A program made the position numbers and the translations under genes. The notes beneath the pieces were generated by a model. The model saw nothing but the letters and a program-made list of their open reading frames with translations. It ran no database searches and was not told where the DNA came from. Shown piece by piece: positions 5,625 through 33,434 of a stretch of 64,000 nucleotides of DNA; position 1 is the stretch's first letter, and every line of letters starts with the position of its first letter. Source of the DNA: Crassaminicella indica (GTDB lineage Bacteria; Bacillota; Clostridia; Peptostreptococcales; Thermotaleaceae); assembly GCF_019203185.1 (NCBI RefSeq), contig NZ_CP078093.1, forward strand, positions 930,001-994,000, written 5' to 3'.

Positions 5625-6674
5625 TTGCAATTTATTAAACAAACTGCAGATTTTGATTTAGGTGATACACCTATAGAAAATATATTTATAAATGATTTTA
5701 TGCCTATGGCTAATGGAACCTACGTGAAGGTATATCTATTAGGCTATAAATATGCAAATGATAAGGATCCATCCCTTTGTATCAATCACCAAACCATTGC
5801 AAAACACCTTAATATCCCATTATCAGATGTTTTAGATGCTTGGGATTTTTGGCAACAAAAAGGGATTATCAAAAAACATTTTGAAGATTCAGAGGATAAA
5901 ACAAAATATACAGTTGAATTTTTAAATCTAAAACAACTATATGTTTATAATAATTTTAAAGCTATAAATATTTTAGAAAACAACGAACAAGATACTACAA
6001 AACCATACTACTGTTCTCCAAATGATTTGATTGAAGCAAATAAAATTCCTGAATTTAAAGAAATGTTTCGTTACATTGACCAAATTTACAGAAGACCTCT
6101 GCTTCCTCGTGAAAAGAAAAAAATATTAGATTGGATTTATAACTATAACATAGATACAGATCTTATGGTAAGAGCTTTTATGTATTGTGTAGAACAAAAA
6201 AATACCAAAAACTTAAATTATATAGGCGCTGTCATTAGAAGCTGGTATGATAATAACATTACAAACATGGATCAATTAGATAAATACCTTGAAAAGACAG
6301 ATACACAATATGCACAATATAGAAAAATATACAAATTCTTAGGACTCACTACCAATGAAATCCCTGAACCTACTAAAAAAATAATGAACAAATGGCTTAC
6401 TGAATGGAATTTTTCTATAGATATTATATTAAAAGCCTGTGAATACGCTGTGAAAAAAAATAAAATTGATTTTAGCTATATTGATGGGATTTTGAAAAAT
6501 TGGAAAGAAAATAATATTCAATCGGTAAAAGATATAGAAAAAATGAGAAATACTGAAAAATCCACACAAGTACAAGCTAAGAAAACTCCTAACAATCGAT
6601 TCCACAATTTCGAACAACGTACAACAAAATACTCTAAAGATCAATTAGAAAAATTATTTAGAAAGAATAAATAA
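5625..6674 (+). CDS. DnaD-domain replication initiation/primosome protein
   Basis: A 349-residue protein. The N-terminal ~100 residues form a winged-helix-like domain (DLGDTPIENIFINDF, HQTIAKHLNIP). Two DnaD (DnaB_2-type) domains follow at about 149-213 and 232-297, each ending in the family signature YIxxIxxxW (YIGAVIRSW and YIDGILKNW). In Firmicutes such proteins help load the replicative helicase at oriC and during restart. TTG 5625 is chosen because AGGGAGG lies eight bases upstream and the promoter lies between it and the next upstream start. It is followed within 15 bases by the helicase loader gene, so the two are one operon. Confidence 0.87.
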   Translation: MQFIKQTADFDLGDTPIENIFINDFMPMANGTYVKVYLLGYKYANDKDPSLCINHQTIAKHLNIPLSDVLDAWDFWQQKGIIKKHFEDSEDKTKYTVEFLNLKQLYVYNNFKAINILENNEQDTTKPYYCSPNDLIEANKIPEFKEMFRYIDQIYRRPLLPREKKKILDWIYNYNIDTDLMVRAFMYCVEQKNTKNLNYIGAVIRSWYDNNITNMDQLDKYLEKTDTQYAQYRKIYKFLGLTTNEIPEPTKKIMNKWLTEWNFSIDIILKACEYAVKKNKIDFSYIDGILKNWKENNIQSVKDIEKMRNTEKSTQVQAKKTPNNRFHNFEQRTTKYSKDQLEKLFRKNK

Positions 6675-6688
6675 GGTAGGTGTCTACT

Positions 6689-7672
6689 TTGTATGACCAC
6701 TTTACAAAAGAAATACTATTAGAATATGAAAAGATACGTGATTTAGAAGCTAAAGCATTAGAAAAAAGAAAACTAGAAGTATATAAAAAAGTTCCTGAAA
6801 TCAAAGAAATTGACGAAGAGATAGGAAGATTCGGCATACTCATTTCAAAAGCAATATTAGAAAATCCCCAAAATTATGAAAAAGCTTTAGCAAATATTCA
6901 TGAAAAAATGGAACACTTAAAGCAAGAAAAAGCTATTTTACTTACAGAAAACAATATTCCTATGCATTATTTAGAAATGAATTATCAATGTCCAGCCTGC
7001 AAGGATACAGGATTTTTAGATAATCACAAAAAATGTAATTGTTTTAAGCAAAAGCTCATTAATCGTGCTTATTCTATGTCCAATATGGAAAAAATATTAG
7101 AAAAAGAAAATTTTCAAACCTTTAACATTGACCTATTTTCAGATGAACCATTTGAAAATGAAGTTTTAACTCCTAAAGAAAATATGCAAAACATATTAAC
7201 AGTCTGTGAAGGATTTGTATTCAACTTTGATACAAAATCAAATGAAAATCTTTTATTTTACGGTACAACCGGACTTGGAAAAACTTTCTTATGCAATTGT
7301 ATTGCAAAAGCATTATTAGATAAAGGAAAAATTGTAATATACCAAACAGCTTTTAAAATTTTAGAAATCCTAGAAGAATATAAATTCAATAAAAAAAGAA
7401 CCAAAGATATTGAGTCAAGCTATCAGCTTTTATTTGATAGTGATTTATTGATTATTGATGATTTAGGTACAGAACTCACAAATACTTTTACAAACACAGA
7501 GATTTTTAATATTCTCAACACAAGGCTTATTCAAGATAAAAAAATTATCATTTCTACTAATTTATCACCTGCCCAACTTGCAAATACCTATAGTGACAGA
7601 GTTTTTTCTAGAATAGTTGGTGCCTTTACAAAGCATAAATTTTACGGTCCAGATTTAAGGTGGGAAAAATAA
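6689..7672 (+). CDS. DnaC/DnaI-like helicase loader, AAA+ ATPase
   Basis: A 327-residue ATP-binding protein. An N-terminal helical region is followed by a zinc-ribbon-like cluster (CPAC at about 101-104, CNC at 116-118), then an AAA+ core with Walker A GTTGLGKT (about 192-199) and Walker B LLIIDDLGTE. The layout matches DnaI/DnaC-type loaders that place DnaB on DNA. The start is either GTG 6680 (Shine-Dalgarno too close) or TTG 6689 (AGGTG six bases upstream); I favour 6689. It is co-transcribed with the DnaD-domain gene just upstream, and the pair ends at a strong terminator. Confidence 0.88.
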   Translation: MYDHFTKEILLEYEKIRDLEAKALEKRKLEVYKKVPEIKEIDEEIGRFGILISKAILENPQNYEKALANIHEKMEHLKQEKAILLTENNIPMHYLEMNYQCPACKDTGFLDNHKKCNCFKQKLINRAYSMSNMEKILEKENFQTFNIDLFSDEPFENEVLTPKENMQNILTVCEGFVFNFDTKSNENLLFYGTTGLGKTFLCNCIAKALLDKGKIVIYQTAFKILEILEEYKFNKKRTKDIESSYQLLFDSDLLIIDDLGTELTNTFTNTEIFNILNTRLIQDKKIIISTNLSPAQLANTYSDRVFSRIVGAFTKHKFYGPDLRWEK

Positions 7673-7689
7673 CTCCTTTATAATTTTAT

Positions 7690-7734
7690 AAAGTCTGTAG
7701 AAGTATATCCATATTGCTTCTACAGACTTTATTT
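7690..7734 (+). terminator. Intrinsic terminator of the dnaD-dnaC-like operon
   Basis: Perfect 14-bp stem (7690-7703 with 7717-7730), 13-base loop, then a T-rich tract. Confidence 0.88.
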
Positions 7735-7772
7735 TATACAATATATTCCATTAAATTTTTACAAATTTTTTA

Positions 7773-7801
7773 TTGACATTTAATAAATCGTCATGTATTA
7801 T
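7773..7801 (+). promoter_or_regulatory. Promoter of the tRNA-Lys/tRNA-Thr operon
   Basis: TTGACA at 7773-7778 and TATTAT at 7796-7801, separated by exactly 17 bases. Near-consensus vegetative promoter about 25 bases before the first tRNA. Confidence 0.8.
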
Positions 7802-7825
7802 ATATAACTGTGAGTAGCAAGAAAT

Positions 7826-7901
7826 GACCCATTAGCTCAGTCGGTAGAGCACTTGACTTTTAATCAAGGTGTCCCGCGTTCGAGCCGCGGATGGGTCACC
7901 A
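7826..7901 (+). tRNA. tRNA-Lys (anticodon TTT)
   Basis: A 76-base cloverleaf. Acceptor stem GACCCAT/ATGGGTC, anticodon loop CTTTTAA with TTT at 7859-7861, T-arm GTTCGAG, discriminator A and encoded CCA. First gene of a two-tRNA transcript. Confidence 0.96.
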
Positions 7902-7905
7902 TGAT

Positions 7906-7980
7906 GCTGGTGTGGCTCAACGGTAGAGCAGCTGACTTGTAATCAGCAGGTTGGGGGTTCGATTCCCTTCGCCAGCTCCA
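7906..7980 (+). tRNA. tRNA-Thr (anticodon TGT)
   Basis: A 75-base cloverleaf. Acceptor GCTGGTG/CGCCAGC, anticodon loop CTTGTAA with TGT at 7938-7940, T-arm GTTCGAT, discriminator T and encoded CCA. Four bases after tRNA-Lys. Confidence 0.95.
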
Positions 7981-7992
7981 TTTTACCTTTAG

Positions 7993-8034
7993 AAAAAAGG
8001 GGCGTAAGATACGAGTTCTTATGCTTCTTTTTTA
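7993..8034 (+). terminator. Intrinsic terminator after tRNA-Thr(TGT)
   Basis: Stem GGGGCGTAAGA with TCTTATGCTTC (two G-T pairs), flanked by an A-run and a long T-run. Confidence 0.85.
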
Positions 8035-8103
8035 TTTTTTGAATAATATCAGAGATAAAGCAACTTTTATAAATAAAAGATTTTTCAGTTGATAAGTACA
8101 TCA

Positions 8104-8132
8104 TTGACATATAAAAAATATTTTTGTACTAT
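8104..8132 (+). promoter_or_regulatory. Promoter of the second tRNA-Thr gene
   Basis: TTGACA at 8104-8109, 17 bases, TACTAT at 8127-8132. It lies about 43 bases upstream of the tRNA, after the preceding terminator, so this tRNA has its own transcript. Confidence 0.65.
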
Positions 8133-8175
8133 AATAATATAGAAGATTATTACAATTATGTATTAAAATAACTAT

Positions 8176-8250
8176 GCTAGTGTGGCTCAATGGTAGAGCA
8201 GCTGAATCGTAATCAGCTGGTTGGGGGTTCGATTCCCTTCACTAGCTCCA
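8176..8250 (+). tRNA. tRNA-Thr (anticodon CGT)
   Basis: Almost identical to the preceding tRNA-Thr, but the acceptor stem is GCTAGTG/CACTAGC, where changes on both strands keep pairing. The anticodon loop is ATCGTAA, giving CGT and reading ACG. Base 32 is A, where the TGT isoacceptor has C. Encoded CCA present. Confidence 0.93.
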
Positions 8251-8262
8251 AAAACTAAAATA

Positions 8263-8302
8263 GGTCAGGATTAGATAAACCCTATCAATCCTGACCATAA
8301 TT
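8263..8302. terminator. Bidirectional terminator between tRNA-Thr and purA
   Basis: Perfect 10-bp stem GGTCAGGATT/AATCCTGACC with a 14-base loop. A T-run follows on the plus side and a T-rich tract on the minus side. Confidence 0.85.
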
Positions 8303-8304
8303 TT

Positions 8305-9600
<1,296 letters not shown>

Positions 9601-17287: not shown

Positions 17288-19354
17288 TTAGAATTTAAAT
17301 TTTTCGATATGTACCTGCATAGCATTTGAACGCTCTTTTAATTCTTTACTTGTATTTAAAATATCTTTTGTAGCTTCACTCACTATCTGTGTTGTAGCAG
17401 CAATTTGCTGAGTTGCAGCTGATACTTCTTCAGATACAGCTGATGCTGATTGTACTCTTTCAATAATTTTTTCTTTCTTTCCATTTATTACAGATGTAGA
17501 AGCATCAATATTTGTAACTTTAGGAATGATTTCCTCTACTTCACTAATAATATCTTTAAAAGCTGCAATAGAATCTTTTACAATCTTTTCTTGTTCAATC
17601 AATTGCGTACTTACATTCTCTGCTGTATCTACTGACATTTTTGCATCCTTTGAAATGCTATTGATAATCTCATTAATACTGCTAGAAGACTGTTTCACCT
17701 GTTCTGCCAATCCTCTTATTTCATCTGCTACAACTGCAAAGCCTTTACCAGCTTCACCTGCTCTTGCTGCTTCAATAGCTGCATTTAATGCTAAAAGATT
17801 TGTTTGTTCAGAAACACTATTAATAACCTCTGTAATTTGCGTTACTTGATTAATGTTTTCACTTAATGTAGAAACATTTTCTTTTACACTTGTTGAAGCT
17901 TGATTCATAACCTCTATAGAAGAGATTAACTTTTCTAATTGCTCATTACTTATATTTGCTTTTGAATTTATTGCATTGGTTTTATTATTTACTTCAGAAA
18001 TAAGATCAGCAACAACATCTATTTCTTTTCCAAAGTTTATTAATTCTTGGGCTATCTCTGTTAAATCTTCTGCTTGTAAATTTGTTCCTTGTGCAACATC
18101 ACTTACAGAGTTTGCAACTTCATCATATGAATGATTAATTTTTTCAGCTACCTCATTTAAGTTTTTTGCATCGTTATCAACAAGTTCAGACATATCCTTT
18201 ATTTTTATCATCATATTTTTCTGTCCCTGTATCATATTTTCAAAGCTATCAGCAAGCTTTCCAAATTCATCTGAGCTTTTATTATTTATTTTAATTGTAA
18301 AATCTCCTTTTTCAGCGCACGCCATTAAATCGATTAAATGATGGATAGGCTTTGTAATAATTTTACTGATAAAATATGCAGCTACTACAGCAATAATCAG
18401 TCCAAGTAATATCATAATCGTTTGAAAAATTAGCATTTCTTGTACCTGTGATAAGATTTCACTTTTAGGAGCTGTTGCAATAATAACAAAACCATTATTC
18501 AATTTTGAAAAGCTGGTTAATTTTTCTACCCCTTGAAATTTTGTTTCTTGAATACCTAATTGTTTTTTATCTATAACATCTTTTAATTTCGCTAAGCTAT
18601 CATCTCCTAAATCTTTTAAGCTTTTATGCTCTTTTATTGTAGGATGCACAATAACATCATATTTTGAATTTAATAAGAAGGTATATCCAGTATCATATAA
18701 TTTCATTGAAAGGATACTTTTTTCAATAATCGAAAAATCTATGTCCATTCCTACAACACCTATTAATTGATCTCCATTATATACTGGTGAAGAATATGTA
18801 ATCATATTTTTATTTAGATTTTTGTCATAATAAGGATCACTCCATACTCCATGCCCTGTGTTAATAGGTCTAAAATACCAAGCCGCATTTTTATTTGAAG
18901 GAGTTAAATCTTCAAGCGGTGTAGCCTCTCCAATATTTTTATAATCACCATTTTCATCTGTAAAATATACAGATTGATAAAGCTTGTCTGCATGAATTAA
19001 TTTTGGATTAAATGCAAAATACGCATCAATATTTCCTACTGCATTTTTTGCTGCATTATAAACTAATGGATTTACACCTTCAATAAAAGCATCCATGTAA
19101 TTTGATGTACTTAATTGCTCTTTATTATATATTCCTGCAATACTATTCCCTAGATTATCTACAGAGCTTTCAAGAGAATTCATCATTTTATCAAACTCAT
19201 TTGCTTTATTTTGCACCATTAAAAGCATTTTATCATTAGCATTACTACCAATAATCTTTCTGCATTTTACATAGCTTACCCCACTTATTACAGAAGATAC
19301 TAGCACAGTACATATGATAATCGCTAAAGCAATTTTATAAGATATTTTTTTCAC
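17288..19354 (-). CDS. Methyl-accepting chemotaxis protein with Cache-type sensor
   Basis: A 688-residue chemoreceptor. TM1 at about 8-27, an extracellular double-Cache-like domain (about 35-300, with [19 protein letters not shown]), TM2 at about 308-330, a HAMP domain, then a signalling domain with the highly conserved hairpin tip ([20 protein letters not shown], about residues 515-535). It senses an external small molecule and controls CheA. GTG start at 19354. The stop of the upstream PLP decarboxylase gene is 15 bases away, so the two are probably one operon and the ligand may be an amino acid or amine. Confidence 0.9.
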
Positions 19355-19369
19355 TCTTATAACCCCCCA

Positions 19370-21697
19370 TTATTTTATCAATAAGTCATTTATAAACTCA
19401 TCTATCATATCTGTTGAAACATGAGGCATAATATCAAGATGAGATGTTGTATCATTATTTTCATCTATTTCCTGAGGCATTCCCCACTTCTGACAAATCT
19501 CAGCTTTAGGAGCAGGTTTTAAAATAATAATATTAGAATTTTCATTTCTAAAAGCTGAAATATTAGTCTGTTTTTCTACTTCCTTTAGCTTTTGCTCTGC
19601 ATATCTACTTACATTTATAGTATTTTGTGCAAACTCATATAGTCCTTTTTCTCCTAATTCACATATTCTTTTCCAAATCACAACAGACATATATGTATTC
19701 TTAGACCCTGTAATAATCGTTCCGTATTGTTCAAAATAATTTTGAATCTCCTCCTCTGTATATATATTTTTGCTATCTCTAATAATATCTTGAAGCTTTG
19801 ATAATATTTCATTGACAATAATATCTATATTACTTTTTCTAAATATCCCTATACCGCATGGAAAAGGAGCTCCTAAAAACTTATGTCCACTAACAGCAAT
19901 AGAATCTATAGGAATATAGTTTTCATCCTCTGGTGATAATTTAAAAGGCAGTATTTCCTTGTACGTGCTCAAAAAAGGTAGAATATGTCCATGCAGTGCT
20001 CCATCACAATGAATATATACTTGTTCTTGAGACATTTCACATTCTCTTAAAACTTCTCCCACTTTTTTGATATTATCAATAGCACCTTTCATAGTTGTCC
20101 CTAAATTAATATTTATAATAGCTCCTAAGTCAGGATTTAATTTCTTATTGAACATGATTTTTTCTTTTAATGAAGTATAATCCATTTCTCCTGATACAGG
20201 ATTGTTTTCTATCTTTTCTGTTTTAATGTCAAATATTGCTGCTCCCTTTGATAAGCTATAATGAGATTCTGCAGTGAAAAATAACACAGCATTGTTTTTA
20301 AATTTTCTTTTTGCCGTAAGCAGCCCTATATAATTACCTTCTGTTCCTCCTGTTGTAACGTATCCTGTAAATTCTTTTTGTACATCTTTATGGAAAAATA
20401 TAGTCTTATAAAATTTAATAATCTCTTCATTAAATTTATCTGTATAAGAAATATCCTTTATAGAATCTTTAATATTATCTAAATTTAAGTCTGCTGAGAA
20501 AAGGCTATTGCAAGTATTATACATAATGCTTTCTTTTATCAGCATTTCGAATAACTTATTCAATTGACTATTATCCCAAAGTTGATTAATTGGATAACCC
20601 ATTGATATAGGCTTGAACATTTCTAATTTTTCCATAAATTTCTTATACCTAAGGTAATCCTCTTCTAGTAATTGATTCTTACTAAAAGCTTCAGTCAATT
20701 CTTTTTTATTTAATTTTTTTAACGTCCCTATTTTCTCTAAGCTAAACCTATTGAAAAAATAATCATCAAAGAAAAGAAAATTTCCATTTCTCGAACCAAC
20801 AACAGTACTATCTTCTGCACCTATATACTGCACTGTCGCATCATTAAAGTATTTTTGAACCTTTACACTAGTAATTAACAATCCTGTTAAATAAGAAGAT
20901 TTGATACAAGTACAGCTAATAGATACTGCATCAACATACATACGAGATTCATTTTGCTTTAGTATATTCTTCCCTTCTGAAAAAAGCTTCAGATCATCTA
21001 CAGAATGAGCCATTAAATGAATATAACAATGATTAAAATAGCTCCTTACTACTTCTATAATCTTTTTTATTTTATTTGCCTGCTCTTGTGTATATTGATT
21101 TTTTAATGAAATTGTAAAGAAAATCCCTTTATTCTTTAAATATTTATTTTTACTTTTAAAGTACTCTTCAATTTTTTCCAATTGCTCTTCTAGAATTATT
21201 TGTTCTTCAATATTTAATAAGCTTGCTGCTTCATAAACACTAAATGGAACCTTTCCACAGCTTATCAAAACTGTTTCCAATTTTTCCTTTTTAAATTTTG
21301 TCTTTGCTGCTTTAATAGAAAAAATAGCAGCTTCCTTATGTCCTAATGTAAAATAACCAAAACTATTTGTATCCTCTCCTCCATAAGTAGGCATATGTAG
21401 ATATTTAAATATCTTATTTAATAGCTTCAACTCAATTTCTCTTGTTTCTAACCCATATTTACATTGTCCATCTGGATTTCCTACATTGTTAATATGGTAG
21501 TTAAATAATTTCATCAATACTTCTTTATCTCTTTGAGGTAAAATATTTTCATCTATATCATAAAAATATTGATTATATTTTTTTAATAATTGTGAAATAA
21601 AGCACTCATAATTCTGTAAATTTTCTCCATCAAATTTATATCTTTCAGCAATTATATTTGGATCTACAAGACAAAGATAGTCGTTTGGCGTTTTCAA
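19370..21697 (-). CDS. Group II PLP-dependent decarboxylase, tandem-fold (inactive + active halves)
   Basis: A 775-residue protein, about twice the length of histidine decarboxylase-like enzymes. The C-terminal half (about 345-775) has GYP, TTGGTEGN (about 448-455), SHYS with the PLP-stacking His479, HCDGA with Asp565, SGHK with the PLP Lys606 and a C-terminal IMPHVS motif. The N-terminal half (about 65-330) repeats this layout (GYFTLGHKEAAIFS, YIH, SIS), but the His, Asp and Lys are gone. TTG 21697 is chosen because AAGGAGGG lies six bases upstream; ATG 21736 has no such site. Substrate unknown (an amino acid; histidine possible). Co-transcribed with a chemoreceptor gene. Confidence 0.85.
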   Translation of the reverse strand: MKTPNDYLCLVDPNIIAERYKFDGENLQNYECFISQLLKKYNQYFYDIDENILPQRDKEVLMKLFNYHINNVGNPDGQCKYGLETREIELKLLNKIFKYLHMPTYGGEDTNSFGYFTLGHKEAAIFSIKAAKTKFKKEKLETVLISCGKVPFSVYEAASLLNIEEQIILEEQLEKIEEYFKSKNKYLKNKGIFFTISLKNQYTQEQANKIKKIIEVVRSYFNHCYIHLMAHSVDDLKLFSEGKNILKQNESRMYVDAVSISCTCIKSSYLTGLLITSVKVQKYFNDATVQYIGAEDSTVVGSRNGNFLFFDDYFFNRFSLEKIGTLKKLNKKELTEAFSKNQLLEEDYLRYKKFMEKLEMFKPISMGYPINQLWDNSQLNKLFEMLIKESIMYNTCNSLFSADLNLDNIKDSIKDISYTDKFNEEIIKFYKTIFFHKDVQKEFTGYVTTGGTEGNYIGLLTAKRKFKNNAVLFFTAESHYSLSKGAAIFDIKTEKIENNPVSGEMDYTSLKEKIMFNKKLNPDLGAIININLGTTMKGAIDNIKKVGEVLRECEMSQEQVYIHCDGALHGHILPFLSTYKEILPFKLSPEDENYIPIDSIAVSGHKFLGAPFPCGIGIFRKSNIDIIVNEILSKLQDIIRDSKNIYTEEEIQNYFEQYGTIITGSKNTYMSVVIWKRICELGEKGLYEFAQNTINVSRYAEQKLKEVEKQTNISAFRNENSNIIILKPAPKAEICQKWGMPQEIDENNDTTSHLDIMPHVSTDMIDEFINDLLIK

Positions 21698-21860
21698 GTC
21701 TTTCCCTCCTTCATCTAAAGCTTTAAACATTTTCATCAGCTTATAAAAAAGATTTTTTCTTTTTTCAACATCATTTTACAACATTTCTTTAGATATTTTT
21801 GTCATATATTGCGATATTTTGTATTTCTGAATATTCTTTACAATTAATACTAATCAAAAA

Positions 21861-21889
21861 AGAGAATCCTTTTTAATAAAGAATTCTCT
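21861..21889 (-). terminator. Intrinsic terminator after the DUF951 gene
   Basis: AGAGAAT pairs with ATTCTCT around a loop of about 15 bases and runs into a T-run on the minus strand. It overlaps the DUF951 stop codon. Confidence 0.75.
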
Positions 21890-22083
21890 TACTTCTCTTT
21901 TCTCTCTACAATTTTTTTGATCCTCTTTTCAAGCTTTACTCTTGGAATCCATACCTGTTTATCACAACCAAGACATCTAATTCTAAAATCCATACCTGTT
22001 CTCATTATTTCAAATTGGTTGCTTCCACAAGGATGATTCTTTTTTACTTGTATAATATCTCCTAATTTTAAATCCATAGGCAT
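21889..22083 (-). CDS. DUF951 family protein
   Basis: A 64-residue protein: LKLGDIIQVKKNHPCGSNQFEIMRTG-type start and FRIRCLGCDKQVWIPR, the DUF951 pattern with a possible zinc-binding Cys set. Family function is not established; it is commonly near parB, ychF or mscS genes in Firmicutes. A longer in-frame reading to 22176 overlaps mscS and contains a hairpin; AAGGAGAG upstream of ATG 22083 supports the short form. Confidence 0.82.
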   Translation of the reverse strand: MPMDLKLGDIIQVKKNHPCGSNQFEIMRTGMDFRIRCLGCDKQVWIPRVKLEKRIKKIVERKEK

Positions 22084-30783: not shown

Positions 30784-33434
30784 ATTCGAATAGGTAAGGA
30801 TTTGAAGTTATCTCCACCTTTTCCCCTCGACCACACCCTGCATGAGACTTTCGAACTCACAAGGCGTTCCATCTTAAACTTTTAATCTAAATTAATCAAA
30901 TTACATTCTTTACGATATTTGTTTACTTTCTTCAACTGTTTTACGTTCAATTGAAGTTTGTTCATATATCTATCAATCGTCTCTTTTAGTGTTGCATGTA
31001 TTAACTTGTGAACATCCTTGTGTATTGCTATGAGATTAGCAAATTCATCTTTTCCACCTAATTCTGTTGGCTTTATATGATGTATCTCCACTTCATTAGC
31101 ACATAAGAATTTACCTGTGACCAAGCATTTTCCTTTCTGTGATGAGTATTTAGAGAGTTTGTTATCTGCTAATTCAACCGTATTATATTCGTATATATTA
31201 TTCATAAGCCTTTGTATTTCAGTAGACACATTAGGTTTTAGTTTCTTGTATATTAATTCTCTACCTTGAGATGTATAGTTACATATATTTTGTGAAAAAT
31301 TCATCACATTTTTAGTCTGTATGTCTGCTATTGGATGGAGATATAAACCTGCTACCTTATGTGTTTTAAAGTTATTTTTATTGAACTTTTTGTATGTTTC
31401 GTTGGGTTTAATAGGAATTTCACATTTACCTATTGATTTTAGACGATTGAATAGGGTTTTGGAAATTTGATAGGCTATTTTACTAAAATCTCTGTTAATA
31501 TGCGTTGCATATTTGTAGTAGTTTTTAATCCCTATAATATATATGTTGTATTTATTGACTGTACTTGTTAAAGGATTTTTTTGTATATTTAAAATTAAAT
31601 CTCTTAATCTTGATTTAATCTTCTCCTTTTTCTTTTCCATGACGAATGTATTAGCAACATGTTTGTTTCTCTTTTTTACTACTTTAATCTTGAATCCTAG
31701 AAAATCTGAACTTTTCTTTCTAAGATTTGTTATTTGAGATTTTTCTGTTGATATATCCAGTTTCAAATTATTCTTTAAATAGTTTTTAATTGCATGAAAT
31801 ATTTTATTTGCTGTTATGTGATTTCTAGTGTAAATTTTGAAATCATCAGCGTACCTTACAATGAACATTTCTTTTAGATTACTATATTTTTTAAGTCCCA
31901 AGTATTTACTGTCTACTCTTGAATATCTGTATTTGGTTTCAAAGGTTTCCCATTGGTCACTAACCCACCAATCTAATTCATTTAACACAATATTAGACAG
32001 TAAAGGAGATAATATACCTCCTTGTGGAGTACCTTCAGTTGGTATCCCTATTCCTTCTATTGGTGCTTTTAGCATTTTACTAACTATTCTAAGAACTCTC
32101 TTATCTTTGATACCTATATCATACATCTGTTTTAATAATTTTGTATGATTTACGTTATCAAAGAAACCTTTTATATCTATATCTACTACATGATGCATCT
32201 TCCCTATATTAATTAGGTATTGATTTCTTGACATAGCATGATGAGTTGACCTATTAGGTCTAAATCCATAAGAATGTTTGTGGAATCTTGCTTCGCATAT
32301 TGATTCAAGAACTTGTTTGAACATTTGCTGTATAATTCTATCTCTCATAGTTGGTATTCCTAAAGGTCTTGTTTTACCGTTATCTTTAGGGATTTCTACC
32401 CTTCTAATCGAGTTGGGTTTGTAATTCTTTAGTGTGTCTCTTATTTCTTTCACAAATGTACCTTCATCCTTGACTTTATAATCTGCTATTGTCAATCCAT
32501 CAGTACCTTTAGTTTTACTTCCTGTGTTAGCCTTGATGTTTCTATATGCAAGAAGTATATTTTCTCTTGATGTTATGATTTCATATAATCTAAGACCGTT
32601 AGTGGCTCTTTTCTTACTTCTATCATATAACCAATCGAATGTTTCTTGCATACCGTAATATTCGCTATATCGTAATGCTGTACTCATTGATGGCGTGTTG
32701 TTCTCCTTCCATACAGAAGTCCCATCATCTTACCTGACCCTATGAGTTTCATTTAATTAGTTCAGTTTTCAAAGTTCAAGACTTGGGACTATCCCTCCGC
32801 CACTTATTATCATGGTTTCATAGGTACTGTGTCCCTACTTTCACAAAAGTAAATTCATTTCAATATCATTTGATATCTTATAGAAACCAACCCGATTAGT
32901 AGTCGTTTAGATAGTTGACTTTTGCTTACAATGTTCCGATTAACTTAGCTTTTACATATATCCTTAGATGCTTACTATGAGCCTGTTAATTTATACCTTC
33001 GTTGTTAGGTATTCCGAATTTCTTAATTGACAAACATACTTTTCGGTAATTAACCCCACTAGTTGTGGTTTAAATATTTCTATTTAATAAGAATTTAGAC
33101 TCGTACATTCGCAAGTTCGTCAGTTCATTTAAGAACATTCTCACCGTAGATATTTTCTAGCACTCCGACCTATCATACACTCAACCACCTCTGGTTCGCA
33201 TTTCGTGGTGGTAGGTTATTATCCCACATGCCTTACGGTATACTCTTAGCCGACTTTACCTAGCTTCAAACCCTTAATGTCTACTAAACATTAAACGCTT
33301 GTAGGAGTATCAAGTAATTCGTTTCAGCCTACATGAAGGCTTCATTCCAAATTTCAGTTAATCAGTTAGATTAAATGTGATTTCATTAATCCTCTCTTTT
33401 CGTGATTAATCACTTATAGAGAAACATTTCGCAC
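30784..33434 (-). mobile_element. Group II intron inserted in tnpB
   Basis: A 2651-base intron. The 5' end is GTGCG (33430-33434) and the 3' end is ...CCTATTCGAAT (AY rule). Removing it joins EEID to STSLQMSLRN in frame, giving a normal TnpB sequence. Domain V is recognisable at about 30829-30868 (CGCC... with a GAAA loop and GGTG). Domain I (32688-33434) holds a GTCAATT EBS1 candidate at 33025-33031 that pairs with the last seven exon bases. The reverse transcriptase gene lies in domain IV. Confidence 0.9.
30882..32687 (-). CDS. ltrA: Group II intron reverse transcriptase/maturase with HNH endonuclease
   Basis: A 601-residue intron-encoded protein. RT domain with GFRPNRSTHHA, DIDIKGFFDNV, the GTPQGG motif and the active-site VRYADDF; then the maturase X domain; then a C-terminal HNH endonuclease (CLVTGKFL, EIHHIKPTELGGKDEFANL, HKDVHKLIH). 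It promotes splicing and retrohoming. The reading frame and all motifs are intact, so the intron may still be active even though its host element is not. Confidence 0.95.
   Translation of the reverse strand: MSTALRYSEYYGMQETFDWLYDRSKKRATNGLRLYEIITSRENILLAYRNIKANTGSKTKGTDGLTIADYKVKDEGTFVKEIRDTLKNYKPNSIRRVEIPKDNGKTRPLGIPTMRDRIIQQMFKQVLESICEARFHKHSYGFRPNRSTHHAMSRNQYLINIGKMHHVVDIDIKGFFDNVNHTKLLKQMYDIGIKDKRVLRIVSKMLKAPIEGIGIPTEGTPQGGILSPLLSNIVLNELDWWVSDQWETFETKYRYSRVDSKYLGLKKYSNLKEMFIVRYADDFKIYTRNHITANKIFHAIKNYLKNNLKLDISTEKSQITNLRKKSSDFLGFKIKVVKKRNKHVANTFVMEKKKEKIKSRLRDLILNIQKNPLTSTVNKYNIYIIGIKNYYKYATHINRDFSKIAYQISKTLFNRLKSIGKCEIPIKPNETYKKFNKNNFKTHKVAGLYLHPIADIQTKNVMNFSQNICNYTSQGRELIYKKLKPNVSTEIQRLMNNIYEYNTVELADNKLSKYSSQKGKCLVTGKFLCANEVEIHHIKPTELGGKDEFANLIAIHKDVHKLIHATLKETIDRYMNKLQLNVKQLKKVNKYRKECNLINLD

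Follow-up and report, generated by a model that had tools for sequence, protein, structure and literature searches.

A group II PLP decarboxylase of one dead and one live unit in a single chain, a candidate intrachain pseudo-dimer, encoded beside a chemoreceptor gene

Group II PLP decarboxylases, which include the human enzymes for histamine, dopamine, serotonin and GABA, are symmetric dimers with two shared active sites. In the usual members, which are homodimers, each site combines the cis lysine, aspartate and histidine of one subunit with the arm, tyrosine and serine of its partner. How such a site would be made up when two unequal units are joined in one polypeptide is the question raised by a gene of Crassaminicella indica, located in the window analyzed here (a stretch of 64,000 nucleotides). 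An earlier note on this DNA described its product as an in-line dimer in which a dead copy is joined to a live one. Elsewhere in the window, positions 30882-32687 (minus strand) encode a reverse transcriptase/maturase of the group II intron type whose C-terminal end is HNH-like, as judged by eye.

Two homologous units in one chain

The coordinates assigned to the gene in that note, 19370-21697 on the minus strand, are right, and the end at 21697 is a TTG start codon preceded by GGAGGG. The open reading frame as called automatically begins with an ATG at 21736 and would specify 788 amino acids, but this ATG has no ribosome-binding site before it. Because the TTG at 21697 follows GGAGGG, and because the orthologue in a second genome (contig L014) has a GTG start codon at the equivalent residue, we consider the protein to be 775 amino acids long and number it as in the earlier note. 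The features of the gene are as follows.

19370-21697, minus strand: putative fused pseudo-dimeric group II PLP decarboxylase, TTG start, 775 amino acids; length and start agree with those of the orthologue
21704-21709, minus strand: ribosome-binding site GGAGGG, 5' of the TTG start
20738-21697, minus strand: dead copy at the N-terminus, residues 1 to about 320, with the profile match at 57-306
20681-20779, minus strand: linker, residues 307-339, in the position that a C-terminal domain of the dead copy would occupy
19373-20680, minus strand: C-terminal live copy, complete, residues about 340-775

The two halves of the chain are homologous to each other. Their Smith-Waterman score is 94, compared with 42 ± 6.6 (maximum 72) for shuffled sequences, and BLASTP aligns them at 5e-6. 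The N half alone matches NCBIfam NF002748 (histidine decarboxylase) at 8.4e-19, and in the PDB phmmer aligns residues 44-334 of it (788-amino-acid numbering) with a plant serine decarboxylase at 1.3e-5. Pattern scans found single-copy relatives that were used as alignment rows, and a family profile made from 17 independent single-copy relatives (plasmid, viral-contig and genomic) recognizes two domains in the fusion, at residues 57-306 (positions 44-282 of the 381 in the model) and 340-773 (positions 9-376). Against this profile the N half alone scores 70.1 bits, versus 6.9 bits at most for 2,000 fully shuffled N halves and 9.1 bits at most for 2,000 shuffled in windows of ten. The profile search of the N half proposed in the earlier note thus yields a clear group II decarboxylase match. 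The C half matches PF00282 with 65 bits, above the cut-off of 27; the N half alone gives no match to PF00282, though it matches NF002748 and the family profile. The whole protein exceeds the NF002748 cut-off of 305 bits with a score of 314 only through the summing of both units, the live unit alone reaching 252, and the name histidine decarboxylase can therefore not be given to the fusion with confidence.

The ungapped similarity reported earlier between residues 114-137 and 445-468 is real, but it comprises 10 identities in 24 positions rather than 11, and a 24-mer match as good is present in 15 of 300 shuffles (5%). Since this segment is weak alone, the two-copy claim rests on the comparisons of whole halves. 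The block pairs YIH/YIHCDGA, SIS/AVSGHKF and VGSRN/ITGSKN, cited in the same note, stand in register in the family alignment. Thus there are two homologous units, as proposed, but the N-terminal one is not full length. Homology in this unit extends to about residue 306-320, with the following copy beginning near 340; after GSRNG (residues 301-305), about 35 residues lead to that copy, where the relatives have about 100 more. The dead copy therefore lacks the C-terminal small domain (about 100 amino acids).

An AlphaFold2 model of the N half, based on eight aligned rows, has a mean pLDDT of 59, with values of 74-88 across most of residues 120-260 and about 80 in the large domain. Foldseek returns serine, alanine and histidine decarboxylases as the best PDB chains for this model (E 2.9e-13 to 1e-10), the best of all being AtSerDC (E 2.9e-13), and VIA-align superposes it on 8jg7_C with a Z score of 18.9 and an rmsd of 4.5 over 254 residues. 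The dead unit is thus predicted to fold like the serine and histidine decarboxylases. Because the alignment included relatives of the same fold, the model and the homology claim are in part linked. A full-chain AlphaFold2 model from a two-sequence alignment reached a pLDDT of 33 and was not used. An unrelated N-terminal domain is ruled out by the family-profile match and the fold match of the N half, and neither of the two outcomes that the earlier note named as refuting its reading came about. The fused chain consists of two homologous group II PLP-decarboxylase units, of which the C-terminal one is complete and the N-terminal one is dead.

Division of the active-site residues between the units

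The AtSerDC and CsAlaDC structures place the active site between the subunits, with PLP held by Lys, a stacking His, Asp, Ala, Thr and a Gly-Thr loop of one subunit together with Ser352* of the other (PMC11407765). The other subunit also provides a loop tyrosine, Tyr341* in AtSerDC, and its replacement by Phe leaves only abortive decarboxylation (PMC11407765). The corresponding segments of the fusion are located as follows.

21431-21502, minus strand: residues 66-89 (NYHINNVGNPDGQCKYGLETREIE), the N-terminal arm kept by the dead copy, from the family alignment
20780-20839, minus strand: residues 287-306 of the dead copy, with the retained end of the catalytic loop and GSRNG, from the alignment to AtSerDC
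20333-20350, minus strand: GGTEGN phosphate loop of the live copy, residues 450-455
19997-20011, minus strand: HCDGA of the live copy, residues 563-567, with Asp565 for the PLP pyridine nitrogen
19877-19891, minus strand: SGHKF of the live copy, residues 603-607, with Lys606 as the predicted Schiff-base lysine
19748-19819, minus strand: catalytic-loop insertion of the live copy, about 21 amino acids long, residues about 627-650

The cis and trans residues are divided unequally between the two units. Among positions conserved in at least 80% of the 17 relatives, and counting as kept only those kept in both species, the N unit retains 9 of 11 trans-segment positions and 5 of 40 others (up to the loop), and the C unit retains 36 of the 40 other (cis) positions and 3 of the 11 trans positions. 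With segment borders drawn by hand from published structures, this split has Fisher p values of 2.9e-5 for the N unit and 9.8e-5 for the C unit; at 70% conservation the values are 1.4e-6 and 0.008. The loss of catalytic residues from the N copy, reported earlier for this sequence, is borne out in both species. None of the cis PLP-site residues (Thr, His, Thr, Asp, Ala and His-Lys) is found in the N half, in which GTEG has become HKEA, the stacking His Pro151, GTT SLK or SLP, Asp Met229 and GHK CTC; no PLP lysine, aspartate, stacking histidine or phosphate loop is left, and the C-terminal domain is gone as well. The live unit has a complete cis PLP site in both species: Thr452, His479, Thr535, Asp565, Ala567, His605 and Lys606.

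What the dead unit has kept is the trans side. In AADC the segment equivalent to NNxGD lines the active site of the partner subunit, and the placement of the NNxG arm in trans comes from this knowledge of AADC, not from a structure; we take the arm of the dead copy (residues 66-89, motif NNxG..Y..E) to be the counterpart of this segment, which in related enzymes lines the active site across the dimer. At the loop, YLASRDATIMGS of AtSerDC (Tyr341 to Ser352) aligns with YIGAEDSTVVGS of the N half (Tyr291 to Ser302), so that Tyr291 corresponds to Tyr341* and Ser302 to Ser352*, with a spacing of 11 in both. In the live unit the arm (NNxG..E) is lost or unalignable, and the catalytic loop carries the insertion; the partner site of this loop is the dead one. 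The decay of the mirror-image site is not total, because the live unit still has Tyr654 and Ser665 at the trans positions. The insertion is common to both species but variable in sequence (60% identity in the block). The substrate-pocket residue that decides between serine and alanine in the plant enzymes, Tyr111 in AtSerDC, corresponds to Ile370 here and to Glu (GYPE) in several of the plasmid-borne histidine decarboxylases aligned.

We consider it probable, from this distribution of motifs, that the chain is an intrachain pseudo-dimer of a dead and a live unit with one composite active site. The C-terminal unit would give all of the cis residues (Thr452 to Lys606), and the dead N-terminal unit would give the trans residues, namely the Asn70/Asn71/Gly73 arm, Tyr291 as proton donor and Ser302 as ligand of the PLP phosphate. 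The mirror-image site would have been dismantled on both sides, the cis residues and C-terminal domain having gone from the dead unit and the arm from the live unit, whose loop carries an insertion, and each chain would be left with a single active site. A search of this genome turned up no further NF002748-type gene, and the dead unit thus has no other partner of its type. The symmetric form of two equal units with complete cis sites, which is the usual quaternary form of group II decarboxylases and not the sequence criterion of the family, does not apply to this chain, in which the units are unequal and one has no cis site. The best-supported function is that of a putative amino-acid decarboxylase with a single composite site in each chain; we infer the intrachain pairing, the catalytic competence and an amine as the product. 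The pseudo-dimer idea of the earlier note is supported, and the reciprocal loss of cis and trans motifs gives it a definite mechanism.

The N unit could instead be a regulatory or ligand-binding pseudoenzyme outside the active site, with the live units of two chains pairing as a C:C homodimer. Dead allosteric paralogues are known in decarboxylases, such as the trypanosome AdoMetDC prozyme (PMC5201418), and Tyr654 and Ser665 could still serve such a pair. However, a C:C pair would have to do with an arm that is lost or unalignable and a loop enlarged by about 21 residues, and arm and loop are exactly the segments best preserved in the dead unit. We therefore regard this arrangement as unlikely, and prefer the pairing of the two units within one chain.

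The nearest sequence and fold relatives of both halves are the bacterial-type histidine and plant serine/alanine decarboxylases (7eru/7erv, 8jg7 and 8jij). They have the same cis and trans active-site motifs as the fusion, but are single-unit homodimers with two active sites, whereas the fusion has two units, one of them dead and lacking the C-terminal domain. The glycine-cleavage P-protein (GcvP) is a fusion of GcvPA and GcvPB, in which dead and live fold-type-I PLP copies make one active site. As in the present fusion, a dead and a live copy of this fold are joined in one chain; unlike it, GcvP belongs to another family with another reaction, its chain dimerizes again, and it is widespread. 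By sequence the fusion does not fall within GcvP, the best GcvPA match having an E-value of 0.05, far below the cut-off. Trypanosome AdoMetDC is a pyruvoyl enzyme with a fold unrelated to that of the PLP decarboxylases. It resembles the fusion in that a dead paralogue, the prozyme, supports a live decarboxylase, but the two are separate chains and activation occurs by relief of autoinhibition (PMC5201418). The earlier statement that no description of such an arrangement was known stands insofar as no fused dead/live group II decarboxylase, whether called pseudo-dimer or tandem, appeared in the open-access literature searched, which does not establish absence; it was too broad because the fused P-protein is itself a dead/live fold-type-I pair. 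By this analogy the dead/live PLP principle is already known from the P-protein, and the fused group II decarboxylase pair is what appears to be new.

Selection, distribution and origin of the fusion

The sole other full-length copy found lies in a second genus (contig L014 of genome G011, positions 6022-8349); it is 79% identical and has the same length, so that the search for relatives of equal length proposed earlier has one positive result. The two orthologues give dN/dS values of 0.20 (N half), 0.18 (C half) and 0.61 (linker), and both halves are under purifying selection. These values bear on the idea that the N unit is a functionless, decaying remnant of a tandem duplication followed by read-through fusion. 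Such a remnant might be expected from its long branch (about 5.4 changes per site) and from its lack of any cis catalytic residue and of the C-terminal domain. However, the N half retains 77% amino-acid identity between genera with a dN/dS near that of the live half, the linker evolves much faster than it does, its trans motifs are selectively retained, and the length of 775 amino acids is identical in both species. Decay without function is thus very improbable, and a decayed pseudogene is rejected on dN/dS.

No further full-length fusion came up among 148 relatives, 394 genomes of the order and 398 of the phylum, nor among 299 of the phylum searched with the N half (these sets overlap). The genome contigs searched contained the one orthologue only, the plasmid records searched contained single-copy relatives only, and neither the fusion nor a single-copy histidine decarboxylase retrieved a relative from the viral contigs scanned. 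Single-copy histidine/serine-type decarboxylase genes are present on five IMG/VR viral contigs (L052 and L055-L058, most of them 100-142 kb), with identical proteins in L057 and L058; they may be auxiliary metabolic genes of viruses, or host DNA that was misbinned.

The two genes of the cassette formed with the adjacent chemoreceptor gene have dS values of 0.52 and 0.51, compared with 0.99 for purA and 1.60 for dnaA in the same genome pair. The neighbors also differ, being DUF951-like/mscS and rpsF here, and FprA-like and coaBC-like genes in L014 (names by eye). The low dS and the differing neighbors suggest that the two-gene unit has moved horizontally, in a comparison of few genes with a strong A+T bias. 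The L014 record (JADPRS010000003.1) is labeled 'Lutibacter sp. B2', a Bacteroidota name, yet belongs to the same family as the Clostridia-like genome of the window, and is probably a mislabeled or mixed assembly.

The tree is silent on internal duplication versus fusion with a paralogue, because the branch of the dead unit is too long. In another family of the order, two adjacent, overlapping and apparently intact decarboxylase genes occur (L004, 298-1908 and 1880-3367; G102:C6), unfused and with the lysine region kept in both. A fusion could arise from an unfused tandem pair of this kind.

The chemoreceptor gene and the meaning of the pair

The decarboxylase gene lies directly upstream of a chemoreceptor gene in both genomes, with a gap of 15 bp here and 18 bp in L014.

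17288-19354, minus strand: methyl-accepting chemotaxis protein with a dCache_1 sensor, the conserved partner gene
21860-21890, minus strand: terminator-like hairpin ending the upstream gene

With the hairpin standing between them and the upstream gene, the decarboxylase and chemoreceptor genes probably start their own transcription unit. The 79% identical orthologue of the chemoreceptor is found only in the genome with the fusion, and the next best among 20 relatives is 35% identical. So tight an operon with a co-transferred chemoreceptor could mean that the whole fusion is inactive as a decarboxylase and acts as a sensor or scaffold with its neighbor; however, the cis active-site residues of the live unit are all intact in both species, and we give this idea very little credence compared with that of an active enzyme with one composite site.

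The closest solved sensor to the chemoreceptor by sequence is 9hvj, 7psg being only a weak match. The former is a uracil/acetate receptor, and the core aromatics and Asp of amine sensors are represented by McpX Tyr139, Trp161, Tyr177 and Asp208 (PMC12415202). In the alignment to 9hvj, the chemoreceptor resembles dCache_1UR and dCache_1AM in having all four pocket residues common to the uracil and amine groups (Tyr130, Trp159, Tyr175 and Asp204), but differs from dCache_1UR in that just one of the four uracil-specific positions (Ala114, Leu147, Asp177 and Asn179) is kept, namely Asn179. The Arg116 position is occupied by Ala, the residue placed there in an engineered shift to amine. The position that we take to be that of the Arg of amino-acid sensors (PctA Arg126) is Ala157. 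The full motif of dCache_1AM includes the PctD Arg103-Asp133 pair and Met215/Ser217 (PMC10104139). The pocket residues favor an amine-like ligand, and the chemoreceptor probably senses an amine or a related small molecule tied to the reaction, a reading that we hold less firmly than that of the fusion itself. Histidine decarboxylase genes have been reported beside an antiporter gene in gut bacteria (PMC8465708); no antiporter lies beside the decarboxylase at this locus. We put forward only tentatively, as one possibility, a mobile two-gene module in which the single-site decarboxylase makes an amine and the co-transcribed dCache chemoreceptor detects the same amine.

With cis and trans parts sorted onto different units, the fusion would constitute a natural separation-of-function experiment, in which either side of one active site could be mutated without touching the other. 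The reciprocal loss of motifs also points to a route from a homodimer to an asymmetric fused enzyme, and a chemoreceptor that travels with a decarboxylase may offer a route to the product of that decarboxylase. If the two genes do form such a module, the cell could navigate relative to the product of its own decarboxylation or that of its neighbors.
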